A DNA stretch of 33,672 nt, from positions 1 to 33,672 of the forward strand of contig JAIOPD010000134.1 in the NCBI GenBank assembly GCA_021414115.1, given 5' to 3'. The notes under the pieces are model-generated. The model was not told the DNA's origin, ran no database searches, and saw only the letters and a list, made by a program, of their open reading frames with translations. This DNA comes from Planctomycetia bacterium (GTDB taxonomy: Bacteria > Planctomycetota > Planctomycetia > Pirellulales > UBA1268). Made by a program: the position numbers and the translations under genes. Each line of letters begins with the position of its first letter. The first letter of the stretch is position 1. Of the stretch, positions 5,597 through 33,010 are shown piece after piece.

Positions 5597-5631
5597 CGTC
5601 GGATTCTCTTTCTCAGATCGATGTGGCCCCG

Positions 5632-5750
5632 GGTGCTCGGAAAGCCCGGAGCGCGAGCGACGGGGATCGGGATGGCGATCCTCGAAGGTCGCGTGGAGCC
5701 TGTCAGCGTGGAGGACGTACTCCCCGCGCTCGCGCTTGGGGCTTCCTGAA
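5632..5750 (+). repeat. Dispersed repeat family 1, copy B
   Basis: This copy lies about 35 bases downstream of the gamma-subunit stop. Its ends are GAAAGCCCGGAGCGCGAGCG on the left and CGCTCGCGCTTGGGGCTTCC on the right, an imperfect inverted repeat, with GTGGAGGACGTACTCCCCG before the right arm. It has the same orientation as copy C at 11719-11843. The 373-base intergenic stretch 5597-5969 otherwise holds the terminator at 5771-5796. In 5797-5969 no supported feature was found apart from a weak 5-bp hairpin near 5838. Confidence 0.88.
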
Positions 5751-5770
5751 AGAGAGCGCAGACGCCGGTT

Positions 5771-11718: not shown

Positions 11719-11843
11719 GGCATCGGGTGCTCGGGAAGCCCGGAGCGCGAGCGACGGGTCTACGGGTGGCGGATCTTTTGGTGACGCGGAACGGATTGGG
11801 GTGGAGGGCGTATTCCCCGCGCTCGCGCTTGGGGCTTCCCGAG
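11719..11843 (+). repeat. Dispersed repeat family 1, copy C
   Basis: This copy lies between the divergent amidohydrolase and hydrogenase delta genes. Its ends are GGAAGCCCGGAGCGCGAGCG and CGCTCGCGCTTGGGGCTTCC, with GGTGGAGGGCGTATTCCCCG before the right end. It is preceded by GGCATCGGGTGCTCG, which is also present in copy D. Copies B and C have the same orientation and bracket the 6.3 kb segment between the two hydrogenase half-operons. It fills most of the 11641-11935 intergenic region. Confidence 0.88.
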
Positions 11844-28636: not shown

Positions 28637-30288
28637 ACCTCATGAAGCGGCCGCGCGCCAACACCGGGCCGCTCTCCGGACTCCGTGACTCGCTGGCCCA
28701 CCGCGGCTCTCCGGTTTTTCTGCCGCTGCAGGCCGCCGGCATCCTGTCGGTGGTGATCTTCCTGATTCGATGCGGCCTCGAAATCTTCGTCGCTCACGGT
28801 TTGTATGAATCGCAGCACGTCCTGATTTCGCTCTTGGATGTGACGCTCTCGATCTGGGCGTTGGCCGAGATCGCGATCATCGATCGGAAAGTCACTCCGA
28901 TTCCCCTCCGCGGCCTGACGGGAGCGCTGGTGGGGCAAGTGGCGGTGGGGGTGATCCGCGCACTCGTCATCTTTGTGACCCTTTTCCCTCGCTCGGCGGT
29001 TGATGTGCTCACGAACCGAGTCGATTTCGGGCTCGCGGCCGTCTTCATTCCCGTCGCAGGGATCGTGTTTCTGGCGATCAGTAAACTCCTCATCGACGCC
29101 TTTTCCCACGCGGAGCGGGTCCGTGGCGACCAGCTCGAGATGCAGGTGGCCCGCACCCTGAAGGCCGAGGCTGAACTGCGAGCCAGGCAGGACGAGTTGC
29201 GAAGGATCTTCGACAACCTCCCGATCGCCATCGCCGCCACGACACCCGAGACGGATGGTCGCATCCTGTTTCTCAACGCGCATTTCGTCCGCACGTTTGG
29301 CTACAGCCACGCCGAGATTCCGACCACGGCCGAGTGGGTCGTGCGGGCCTATCCCGATCCCGCCCAACGTCAGGCTGTTCTCTCCCGGTGGAATGACGCC
29401 GTATCGCGTGCCATCCGCGCACACGGCACGGCGTCTTCCCTGGAGTTTCAGGTGACCTGCAAAGACGGCACAGTGCGAGAGATGCTCTTCAGCGCGCTGG
29501 CGCTGCCGGATCTGTTGCTGGTCGCGATGCTCGACGACACTGCGCGCACGCACGCGGAGAAGGAAGTGGCGGCGGCCCGTCGTCGGGTGCAGATCGCTGA
29601 AGCCCGGCAACGCCGGCTGCTGAAACGCAAGCTCAAGAGCAGCCTGATGGCCTCCGCCGTGGCCCACGAAATCAACCTCCCGCTCAGCACAATCCTGCTC
29701 CGCACGCAGCTGGCCCTGAAAAACGGAGATGGCGGTCAGGAGACGCTGACGGCGGTGGCGGCCGATGCCCAGCAGGTGGTCCGCACGATCGAGAAGATGA
29801 AGGTCTTGCTGCGGAGCGTGCAGACGGAGCATTCGACGGTCGATCTGACGGCGGTGGTGCGCACGTCATTCCTCCGACTCAAATGGCAACTGAATCAGCA
29901 GGGGATTGTCCTGGAGTGCTCCGGGCTCGACGACCCGTGCCTCATCGACGGGGACGATGCCCAGCTCCAACTCGCCGTCACCAACGGTCTCCGCAACGCG
30001 ATCGAGGCGATCGCGGCGACCGAAGCGGGCACGGGCAGGATCGCCGTGTCGCTTCTGCGGAAGAAGCTGTCGGTGATCCTCGCGATCGGCGACAGCGGCC
30101 CCGGCTGGTCGGGCGCCGAGCGGGCTGTTGACCCGCTTTCGACCACGAAGCCGTCGGGCAGCGGCATCGGGCTCTACGTCGTGCGGGCGGCGCTCAGGAA
30201 CCACCGCGGCCGGATCGCCTTTCGACGCTCCCCGCTCGGCGGCGCGGAGTTGCGGCTCCGGTTTCCGAGGAAAGGCGACGCGGAGTAA
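28633..30288 (+). CDS. Membrane PAS histidine kinase
   Basis: This 551-residue protein has four predicted membrane segments (about 29-53, 63-83, 95-118 and 132-155). A coiled-coil linker and a PAS domain follow (about 187-305; RIFDNLPIAIAATTPETDG). The dimerisation/phosphoacceptor helix has His345 (SAVAHEINLPLSTILL). The C-terminal ATPase domain shows NGLRNAIEAI, GDSGPGW and TTKPSGSGIGLYVVR. The N-terminal membrane part is short, with little room for a periplasmic sensor, which suits input from the adjacent DctP-like protein. GTG 28633 overlaps the preceding stop; ATG 28642 is an alternative. The last 95 bases overlap the 3' end of hypF on the other strand. Confidence 0.9.
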   Translation: MNLMKRPRANTGPLSGLRDSLAHRGSPVFLPLQAAGILSVVIFLIRCGLEIFVAHGLYESQHVLISLLDVTLSIWALAEIAIIDRKVTPIPLRGLTGALVGQVAVGVIRALVIFVTLFPRSAVDVLTNRVDFGLAAVFIPVAGIVFLAISKLLIDAFSHAERVRGDQLEMQVARTLKAEAELRARQDELRRIFDNLPIAIAATTPETDGRILFLNAHFVRTFGYSHAEIPTTAEWVVRAYPDPAQRQAVLSRWNDAVSRAIRAHGTASSLEFQVTCKDGTVREMLFSALALPDLLLVAMLDDTARTHAEKEVAAARRRVQIAEARQRRLLKRKLKSSLMASAVAHEINLPLSTILLRTQLALKNGDGGQETLTAVAADAQQVVRTIEKMKVLLRSVQTEHSTVDLTAVVRTSFLRLKWQLNQQGIVLECSGLDDPCLIDGDDAQLQLAVTNGLRNAIEAIAATEAGTGRIAVSLLRKKLSVILAIGDSGPGWSGAERAVDPLSTTKPSGSGIGLYVVRAALRNHRGRIAFRRSPLGGAELRLRFPRKGDAE

Positions 30289-32767
30289 GCATGAGCCGCC
30301 CGAGCACGGCCTGGCCGAGCGCGAGGCCGCCGTCGTTGGGCGGCACGGCGTGGTGCGTGAGCACCTCGAAGCCTGCGGCATGGAGCGCGTCGAGTGATCG
30401 CTCGACGAGGATCGCGTTTTGGAACACGCCACCGCTCAGGCCGACCAGATTGCCACTGCCGCCGTCGCGGAGCCGCTTGCAAACATCGACGATCATCCGC
30501 ACGACGGCGTCGTGAAACGCGGCGGCGATGGTGGCCGGCGTATGACCGGCGTTGATGTCGTCCACGATCGCCGCGACGAGCGGTCGCCAATCGGCCACGA
30601 CCGTCCCGTCGGTGGCCGTGGTGAGCGTCAAGCCGCGCCGACCGTCCCACGACTCCACGCCCGCCGCGGCGGCCAGTGCCTCGAGATTCAGGGCCGCTTC
30701 GGCCTCGTAGTCGATCGAGTGGCACGCACCGACGAGCGACGCCACCGCATCGAAGAGGCGGCCCATGCTCGTGGTGGCAATGCAGTTGACCGTGCGCGTG
30801 AGCTGCCGGGCGAGAAGGTCGCGTTCGGCCGCCGAGCCGTGCCCGACGGGCGGCAGCCGCTCATCCCACGGAATGCCCGCCTCGCGGAGGAACGCCAACG
30901 CCGTTCGCCACGGATGACGGATCGCCGCGTCGCCTCCGGGCAACGGAAACGGCAGGAGGTGGGCCGCGCGGTGCGGGTCGCCACCGGCGGCGACGAAGAA
31001 CTCGCCCCCCTGGATCGTGCCGTCACGGCCGTAGCCGGTGCCGTCGAAACAGACTCCGATGAACGCCGGGACAGAGCCGACGTCGAGCCCATGTTCGGCG
31101 AGCAACGCCGCGACATGGGCCTCGTGATGCTGAACCTGCACGAGCGGAATGTCGCGGGCGGCGGCGAAGTCGCGGGCCCAGCCCGTCGAGAGATACCCCG
31201 GATGCATGTCGGCGATCACCGCGGCCGGCGCGACGTCGAAGAGCCGCATGAGGTGCGTCGCCGCGCGGTCGAGCGCTTCGAGCGTTTCGAGATTGCCCAT
31301 GTCGCCGATGTGCTGGCTCATGACGGCCTGATCGTCATGGGCCAGGCAGATCGCGGCCTTGAGTTCGCCTCCCACCGCGAGGACGGACGGCCCGCCACGG
31401 GCCAGTTGGACCGGCAGCGGCGCATGGCCGCGGGAGCGGCGGATGGGCAGTGGCAGGCCGGCCACGCATCGAACCACGGAATCATCACAGGGCACATGAA
31501 TGTCGCGATCGTGCAGCAAAAACCCGTCGGCGAGCGGCGCCAGCCGCGTCGCCGCGTCGGCGTTGTCGGAGGCGAGCGGTTCTTCGGCGAGGTTGCCCGA
31601 GGTCATCACGAGCGGCGGCATGCCGTGGCAGAGCAGGTGATGGAGCGGCGATGAGGGAAGCATGAGGCCCAGAAAGTCGTTCCCCGGGGCCACGGCCGCG
31701 GACACGTTCGAGCACATCCAGTCGATGTCGAGTGTCGTGGCGGCGAAAGAGGACGGGGAGGCGAAGGGGGTCGGCGAACGCTCGACGAGCGTCGGCGATC
31801 TTGCCGCCGCGAGAAGACTTTTGCCGCCCCCGAGCCGGCGATCCACCACAGTCGGATGGGCCCGCGGCCGCAGGAGCACGATCGGCCGCTCGCAGCCCTC
31901 GAGCAGCCGCCGTTCCTGTTCATCGATCTGTGCGAGCTCCCGCGCGGCGGCGAGGTCGGCCACCATCACGGCGAACGGCTTGCGGAGCCGCTGCTTGCGG
32001 TCGCGGAGGATCCGCACGGCCGTGGCATTGGTGGCATCACACACGAGCTGAAAGCCCCCCACGCCCTTGATCGCGACGATGCCGCCGCGGCGGAGCAGCG
32101 CCCGCGCGGCCTCGATCGCGGCGGGGCCGAGGCAGCGGGCGGCGGAGCGGATCGTCGGGATCGCACCGCCGGCCCCCTCGGCAAACCAGACGGCCGGGCC
32201 GCAGGCGGGGCAGGCATTCGGCTGGGCGTGAAACCGCCGCGACGACGGGTCGCAATACTCCGCCGCGCAGGTGTCGCACATCGCGAACGACCGCATCGTC
32301 GTCGCCCCGCGGTCGTAGGGCAGGGCCTCGATGATCGTGAACCGCGGACCGCAGTCGGTGCAGGTGATGAACGGGTGGCGATGTCGCCGATCCCCCGGAT
32401 CGGCCATCTCGGCGAGGCAGGCTTCGCAGGGAGCGATGTCGGGGGGCATGACGACGGCCCGAGGTCCGATGGCCATCACGCTTCCAAGGATCACAAACCG
32501 GCTTTCGTTGTCATCGGCCAGCGGTGGCACATCGAGCGACTCGATGCCGGTCACGCGGGCCAGCGGCGGCGCGGCCGAGGCCAACCCTTCGAGAAACGCG
32601 GCCACGGCGGCGGCGGTGCCCTGCAGTTCGGCCGTCACGCCCGCGGCGTCGTTCTCGACCCAGCCCGAGAGTCCGAGCCGTGTGGCCCGCCGCCAGACGA
32701 AGGGCCGGAACCCCACGCCCTGCACGACGCCGGTGATCCGGATGCGTTTGCGAACGATGGCCGCCAC
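30194..32767 (-). CDS. hypF: Carbamoyltransferase HypF with an in-frame repeat-encoded insertion
   Basis: This 857-residue protein, longer than the usual 750-780, matches HypF, which makes the thiocarbamoyl precursor of the CN ligands from carbamoyl phosphate. The order is acylphosphatase domain (VQGVGFRPFV, 15-24), zinc-finger region (CEACLAEMADP, CTDCGPRFT, CDTCAAEYCDP, CPACGP), YrdC-like domain (GGIVAIKGVGGFQLVCDA, ERPIVLL, MLPSSPLHHLL, VMTSGNLAEEP) and a Kae1-like domain (VQHHEAHVAALL, FDGTGYGRDG, LSGGVFQNAIL). Between ERPIVLLRPRAHPTVV and VAPGNDFLGLM about 45-50 residues (309-356) are encoded by repeat family 2. The normal C-terminus ends near NDGGLALGQAV; about 35 extra residues overlap the kinase gene. 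GTG 32767, with AGGAGG five bases upstream, was chosen over 32869. Confidence 0.92.
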   Translation of the reverse strand: MAAIVRKRIRITGVVQGVGFRPFVWRRATRLGLSGWVENDAAGVTAELQGTAAAVAAFLEGLASAAPPLARVTGIESLDVPPLADDNESRFVILGSVMAIGPRAVVMPPDIAPCEACLAEMADPGDRRHRHPFITCTDCGPRFTIIEALPYDRGATTMRSFAMCDTCAAEYCDPSSRRFHAQPNACPACGPAVWFAEGAGGAIPTIRSAARCLGPAAIEAARALLRRGGIVAIKGVGGFQLVCDATNATAVRILRDRKQRLRKPFAVMVADLAAARELAQIDEQERRLLEGCERPIVLLRPRAHPTVVDRRLGGGKSLLAAARSPTLVERSPTPFASPSSFAATTLDIDWMCSNVSAAVAPGNDFLGLMLPSSPLHHLLCHGMPPLVMTSGNLAEEPLASDNADAATRLAPLADGFLLHDRDIHVPCDDSVVRCVAGLPLPIRRSRGHAPLPVQLARGGPSVLAVGGELKAAICLAHDDQAVMSQHIGDMGNLETLEALDRAATHLMRLFDVAPAAVIADMHPGYLSTGWARDFAAARDIPLVQVQHHEAHVAALLAEHGLDVGSVPAFIGVCFDGTGYGRDGTIQGGEFFVAAGGDPHRAAHLLPFPLPGGDAAIRHPWRTALAFLREAGIPWDERLPPVGHGSAAERDLLARQLTRTVNCIATTSMGRLFDAVASLVGACHSIDYEAEAALNLEALAAAAGVESWDGRRGLTLTTATDGTVVADWRPLVAAIVDDINAGHTPATIAAAFHDAVVRMIVDVCKRLRDGGSGNLVGLSGGVFQNAILVERSLDALHAAGFEVLTHHAVPPNDGGLALGQAVLGRLMLTPRRLSSETGAATPRRRAGSVERRSGRGGS
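31717..31841 (-). repeat. Dispersed repeat family 2, copy inserted in frame in hypF
   Basis: This 125 bp stretch on the minus strand matches 120-247 at the left edge of the window, with two identical 26-base blocks (31816-31841 and 31759-31784) and a shared CATCGACTGGA at its end. It is read through in hypF as residues RRLGGGKS...ERSPTPFA...TTLDIDW. A 15-base perfect hairpin (ACGCTCG-A-CGAGCGT, 31778-31792) lies in the middle. Known HypF proteins pass directly from the RPIVLL segment to VAPG, so these codons are an addition. Confidence 0.87.
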
Positions 32768-32887
32768 CGACACCTCCTGGGTCGCGACAGCGGGCCTGGC
32801 GCGACCTTCAGAGGATACGTCCGCGGCCCGCCGAAAAAGCACGCCGTCTACGGAAGGAGCCTGCGGCAAACTTCGTGCCGCCTCCTT

Positions 32888-33010
32888 TCAGGAAGCCCCA
32901 ATCGCGAGCGCGGGGCATACGACCTCCACCCCAACCCGCGCCACCGCTTCGTGCGGCCACCCCTCTCCCCCGTCGCTCGCGCTCCGGGCTTCCCAGGCAC
33001 CCGATGCCAC
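32888..33010 (-). repeat. Dispersed repeat family 1, copy D
   Basis: On the minus strand this copy reads GGCATCGGGTGCCTGGGAAG and CCCGGAGCGCGAGCGACGGG at its left, then GGTTGGGGTGGAGGTCGTAT, and CGCTCGCGATTGGGGCTTCC at its right. It matches copy C best, including the left flank. It occupies much of the 311-base gap between the SulP gene end (33079) and the hypF start (32767); the rest of that gap shows only the hypF ribosome-binding site. Confidence 0.87.

Follow-up and report, generated by a model that had tools for sequence, protein, structure and literature searches.

The hypF gene of an uncultured planctomycete raises the question of how a dispersed repeat came to be read as part of a conserved enzyme, and whether the repeat belongs to a class that habitually enters genes. 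The gene lies in the 33,672-nucleotide stretch of DNA that we analysed (contig JAIOPD010000134.1), hereafter the window. An earlier sequence-only reading held that a dispersed repeat is inserted in frame within hypF, in the manner of the Rickettsia palindromic elements (RPEs). We assessed this proposal from the gene, the repeat family, the HypF homologues and the surroundings of the other copies.

The hypF gene and the repeat within it

The gene for carbamoyltransferase HypF occupies 30194–32764 on the reverse strand and was identified using TIGR00143, Pfam domains and a codon-based gene call. The open frame extends back to 32869, with a likely start near 32764–32773, and the codon-based call (30197–32773) gave one continuous gene through the insert. 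The 856-aa product scored 721 bits against the TIGR00143 hypF equivalog (cut-off 466), indicating a full HypF, and contained acylphosphatase, two zf-HYPF, YrdC, HypF_C and HypF_C_2 domains. Columns were counted as conserved when at least 95% of the 39 homologous HypF sequences agreed, and the window HypF deviated at none of the 135 such columns.

The reading frame was unbroken across the repeat. The element proper lies at 31707–31858 on the reverse strand (family model positions 5–161, E 3e-34; aligned with 16 other copies), close to the first estimate of 31700–31850. It encodes approximately residues 303–353, HPTVVDRRLGGGKS...TLDIDWMCSN, and the translated insert includes HPTVVDRRLGGGK.... 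Its 3′ terminal repeat (31707–31723, reverse strand) is degenerate in the alignment of copies, reading GACTGGATGTGCTCGAA against a family consensus of GACTGGATGCGCTCTAG. A second, intergenic copy was found at 95–256 on the forward strand (family model E 6.6e-36), ending approximately 40 bp upstream of a gene called at 299–1555. Two conserved core blocks of the hypF copy on the reverse strand, at 31816–31841 and 31759–31784, were identical to the reverse complements of 120–145 and 180–205, respectively; i.e., the two 26-base blocks reported as common to hypF and the stretch at 120–247 are both exact, in reverse orientation. Taken whole, the two copies matched at 79% over 138 nt (BLAST, E 5.9e-26). 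No Rfam families were detected in the window at gathering scores.

Identity and spread of the repeat family

The host genome (G000) comprises 4.35 Mb in 144 contigs. A BLAST search of this genome with the hypF copy returned 45 matches at E ≤ 1, and a profile search returned 53 places at E ≤ 0.01, the lowest-scoring few of which are probably chance matches, giving a copy number of approximately 45–50. Profile matches at E ≤ 1e-15 were present in 20 of the 22 genomes of the genus. The named relatives of the host are MAGs assigned to Pirellulales or Planctomycetota, and their isolate names point to Delaware Bay-type and lake samples. The element is a new sequence family in this Pirellulales genus, and the family is abundant in this uncultured group, with apparently recent activity. 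We found no described MITE of such kind in planctomycetes in the literature, mainly openly accessible papers.

Full-length copies were approximately 156–182 bp long with inverted ends CTAGAGCGCATYC... and ...GGATGCGCTCTAG, the inverted ends of the family being TAGAGCGCATYC. TA was present at both ends in a YTAR context, often CTAG, a target that IS630 is reported to prefer (Tenzen and Ohtsubo, in 1991). The near-identical copies in the congener G013 read YTAGAGCGCGTCTGAG...GCGCTCTAR, flanked by YTA at the left end and TAR at the right end, which is consistent with duplication of TA within YTAR. IS630-family elements duplicate a TA target on insertion (PMC2170065). The element carries no transposase gene and few long open frames, and its length is within the range of approximately 100–300 bp for MITEs.

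A DDE_3 search in the congeners revealed IS630-family elements with matching ends in G001 and G013, the ends being compared with those of the MITE by eye. The G001 element (L248) has a two-ORF DDE_3 transposase and ends TAGAGCGCATCCCGCC and TAGCGCATCCTGCC, the first 12 nt being identical to the MITE end. The G013 element (L247), also of the DDE_3 IS630 family, has ends TAGATCGCGTC, similar to the MITE end, and TACGTGTAGCG is common to its right end and that of the MITE in the same genome. Among the DDE_3 matches in the host genome itself, none had convincing matching ends and no intact autonomous partner was identified. The predicted RNA structure of the element consisted mostly of invariant pairs, with no net support from covariation.

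Like IS630/Tc1-mariner-type MITEs, the present element is small and non-autonomous, has inverted ends with TA at both, is mainly intergenic and has autonomous relatives with matching ends, here in the genus. Unlike them, it is a new sequence family that often sits on TAG stops, and its movement is putative. The assignment to the IS630-type MITEs is well supported by these sequence features, and an IS630-type transposase would be the probable agent of its mobilisation. We also weighed whether the repeat is a REP element moved by a RAYT (tyrosine, HUH) transposase. GTAG-type REPs also give TAG stops to neighbouring genes (PMC3733652), some of the present copies start with GTAG, and this class has been reported in Planctomycetes. 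However, the present unit is 160–180 bp long with two terminal inverted repeats rather than a 20–40 bp GTAG/CGTC palindrome, the young-looking copies have TA at both ends, and IS630-family elements share the same ends. From these features of the unit and its ends, we regard a RAYT-mobilised REP as quite unlikely.

At hypF itself, TA was absent from the ends of both copies described here (CTCGAA in the window and TTCGAG in the second hypF on contig C53); therefore, a target duplication cannot be read at this site. In the hypF copies, as well as in L006, L207 and L211, TAGAG at the ends has become TCGAG, in some cases on both sides of a single copy. In relatives without the element, the gene next to one G013 copy terminates at the same codon position, but the stop is TGA rather than TAG. 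A base-exact empty site for one G013 copy was not found, as the element-free relatives were too divergent.

Entry of the repeat into hypF

We compared the loop between RPIVLL and VAPG in the window HypF with that in 39 homologues representing many phyla. Its length was 59 residues in the window HypF and 10–37 residues (median 11) in the homologues, indicating that approximately 48 residues were added, in agreement with the 45–50 residues that had been estimated between ERPIVLL and VAPGN. In the Planctomycetaceae isolate Ww544 (L295), the loop at the same point comprised 37 residues of a different sequence and was the longest of the 39; that is, the HypF loop can enlarge by other routes.

The repeat was absent from this site in all 11 congeneric HypF regions, where the alignment contained a short variable loop. 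Genus-wide protein matches to the window HypF stopped at query residues ~300–306 and restarted at ~353–355. Among the aligned hypF genes of the genus, only the two copies of the host genome (window and C53) bore the repeat, which supports its entry into hypF within the host genus, as judged from the alignments. This entry within the genus, the open frame and the 45 BLAST matches in the host genome bear out the proposal of an in-frame insertion of a dispersed repeat. The sequence-only reading had added that homologues carrying the segment, with a repeat lacking relatives elsewhere in the genome, would point to an old lineage domain instead. None of the other homologues examined bore the segment, and numerous relatives of the repeat occur elsewhere in the host genome, a result that favours insertion. 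We consider it extremely improbable that the segment represents an ancient domain of HypF specific to the lineage, with the intergenic copies derived from it or resembling it by chance. The 37-residue loop of L295 at the same point would fit such a domain; however, the presence/absence pattern (none of 11 congeners) largely refutes it, and the dozens of intergenic copies with common inverted ends and the predicted disorder of the segment also speak against it.

This disorder was observed in an AlphaFold2 model of the window HypF, which was built with 40 sequences and had a mean pLDDT of 88 and a pTM of 0.88. The best PDB match of the model was HypF 3vth (TM 0.84 on the query and 0.95 on the target). 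Residues 305–351, i.e., the insert, formed the only long internal stretch with a pLDDT below 50, between the strand at 295–300 (RPIVLL) and the strand at 365–368. Residues 309–356 had been put forward as a possible surface loop in a protein that keeps the HypF motifs; the model is in accord with this suggestion, as it contains a disordered segment in an otherwise confident fold and all conserved columns were intact. The simplest reading is that the enzyme works and tolerates the insert as a loop. The insert is presumably translated, and HypF activity was probably retained with it.

A second, partial hypF was identified in the same assembly by its match to the window gene (C53, 31225–33742; L077). 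It runs off the contig end and lies downstream of genes resembling an inorganic-carbon uptake cluster. Within its first 298 codons, 101 of 894 nt (11%) differed from the window copy, with a dN of 0.082 and a dS of 0.244 (ratio ~0.34). The C53 hypF also bears the element, at an identical position and in frame, with different indels from the window copy. Measured between the shared GCC codon and the VAPG codon, the segment is 168 nt long in the window copy and 105 nt in the C53 copy, a difference of 63 nt; both lengths are divisible by three. The outer element end (TTCGAGCGCATCC) was retained in C53 and is gone from the window copy, and most of the inner part was lost in C53. This shared position indicates that the insertion is probably older than the split of the two copies, both of which remained in frame; separate insertion events at a single site are less likely. 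The C53 gene may stem from a variant strain or from contaminating DNA. We dropped the low difference between the two inserts (~1 in 46 nt) as evidence, because the adjoining 150 nt were unusually alike as well (7 differences); the low difference consequently says little.

A second hypF could free one copy to decay, and the window gene may then be a pseudogene whose open frame through the insert arose by chance in GC-rich sequence. The dN/dS of ~0.34 between the two copies and the frequently open frames of the element (mean 2.1 of 6) are compatible with such decay. However, the damaged-looking copy is that on C53, in which a near-invariant proline was lost (RLRKPF to RLRKLF), whereas the window HypF shows no deviation at any of the 135 strongly conserved columns, reaches 721 bits against the TIGR00143 equivalog and is called by codon statistics as a single continuous gene across the insert. 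A decaying window hypF is thus unlikely.

Location of the copies and proposed route of insertion

The surroundings of the copies were assessed with a codon-usage gene caller trained on the window genes, which was run on 51 places in the host genome and on 60 full-length copies from relatives (G013, G017, G009, G004 and G032). The caller is simple and may misplace starts; stops were read from the sequence. A genome-wide search for copies inside ORFs had been suggested, and among the approximately 50 host copies the only real intragenic ones were those at the two hypF loci. In the relatives, 1 of 60 was intragenic, late in its ORF (L219). A candidate third intragenic copy in the host genome (C65:75422) was dropped as a 17-bit chance match in a secretin-like gene. 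The TAG stop of a neighbouring gene was formed at the element end in 30 of 81 copies (G013, L186–L205; G000, G004, G009, G017 and G032), including 14 of the 20 in G013. Gene ends are the usual location of the family.

On average, 2.1 of 6 frames were open per copy (73 copies), and most lengths were not multiples of three. The near-identical G013 copies nearly all lacked an end-to-end open frame. As these are the youngest-looking full-length copies, the element does not appear to be adapted to being read. The scarcity of open frames in the family also suggests that the in-frame passage through hypF arose by chance, or by repair through small deletions, followed by selection on HypF. We regard the reading of the element in hypF as a rare accident that was tolerated.

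The parallel with RPEs, which are found in 19 reading frames (PMC2229807), was therefore upheld in part. Like an RPE, the hypF copy is a short inverted-ended repeat that is read in frame and tolerated in a conserved gene; the habitual insertion into genes that the parallel implies was not observed. RPEs and the present element are set apart by description, i.e., 19 reading frames versus hypF alone among approximately 50 copies, and by the visible IS630-type partner of the latter. A protein-coding palindromic element that decorates many genes under selection or tolerance would agree with the size, the inverted ends, the dispersal and the in-frame position at the same point in two hypF copies. 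It is nevertheless very improbable, considering the single intragenic copy in 60 among relatives, near an ORF end, the restriction to hypF in the host genome and the near absence of open frames, with typical lengths out of frame, in the youngest-looking copies.

In-frame insertions of small mobile sequences have already been described in enterobacteria for RU-1/ERIC and RU-3 (PMC2229807). Like the present element, these are MITE-like and have frames fused to host genes; they differ in their hosts and in that RU fusions were described for several genes. GTAG/CGTC REPs are also read inside conserved proteins, contributing 20–82 residues, including in Opitutus terrae of the PVC superphylum, and the termini of GTAG REPs give neighbouring genes TAG stops (PMC3733652), as does the present element. 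However, REPs are 20–40 bp palindromes, the GTAG ones being tied to RAYTs, whereas the present unit of 160–180 bp has IS630-like ends. The hypF case resembles RPE, RU and REP at the level of one gene, and the family is no habitual gene inserter. In-frame repeats as such are already known; what is new is a family of IS630-type MITEs for which one in-frame insertion is established.

We propose, with a probability of roughly 0.86, that the segment is a copy of an IS630-type MITE that entered the YrdC-like domain, at its short variable loop, in an ancestor of this hypF lineage. An IS630/Tc1-mariner transposase would move the element in trans into TA targets, with YTAR or CTAG preferred. Such sites would be scarce in GC-rich genes, and most copies would therefore be intergenic or exactly at stop codons. 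At a stop codon, TA and the terminal G of the element would form TAG again and leave the protein unaltered. The hypF copy was perhaps trimmed by later small deletions to a length and frame without stops, so that the ribosome would read approximately 48 extra residues. Between the RPIVLL strand and the VAPGN segment, these residues would make up a disordered loop, leaving the folded core and all conserved HypF residues intact.

A further idea, which we offer tentatively and consider doubtful, is that YTAR targeting together with a first base G makes insertion at TAG or TAA stops harmless, as the stop is regenerated. The family could then spread cheaply via gene ends, and rare escapes into loops could become lasting protein segments. 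The shared site in two hypF copies differing by 11% in DNA would mean, on this idea, that the segment was long kept.

The hypF insert offers a closely bracketed example from nature of mobile DNA joining a conserved enzyme without evident damage. The element-free relatives and the two in-frame variants of one insertion allow direct comparison, and the mobile family often provides the stop codons of adjoining genes.

Many MITE copies in the host genome are situated at most a few hundred bases from a contig end (C99, C44, C78, C14, C24, C115, C138 and C40), suggesting that the family probably breaks the assembly. Other dispersed palindromic repeats were observed in the window at 2253–2470, 5625–5752, 11719–11842 and 32885–33010 (GGGAAGCCCGGAGCGCGAGCGACGGG and relatives). 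These resemble CGTC-tagged REPs and adjoin the MITE at other loci too.
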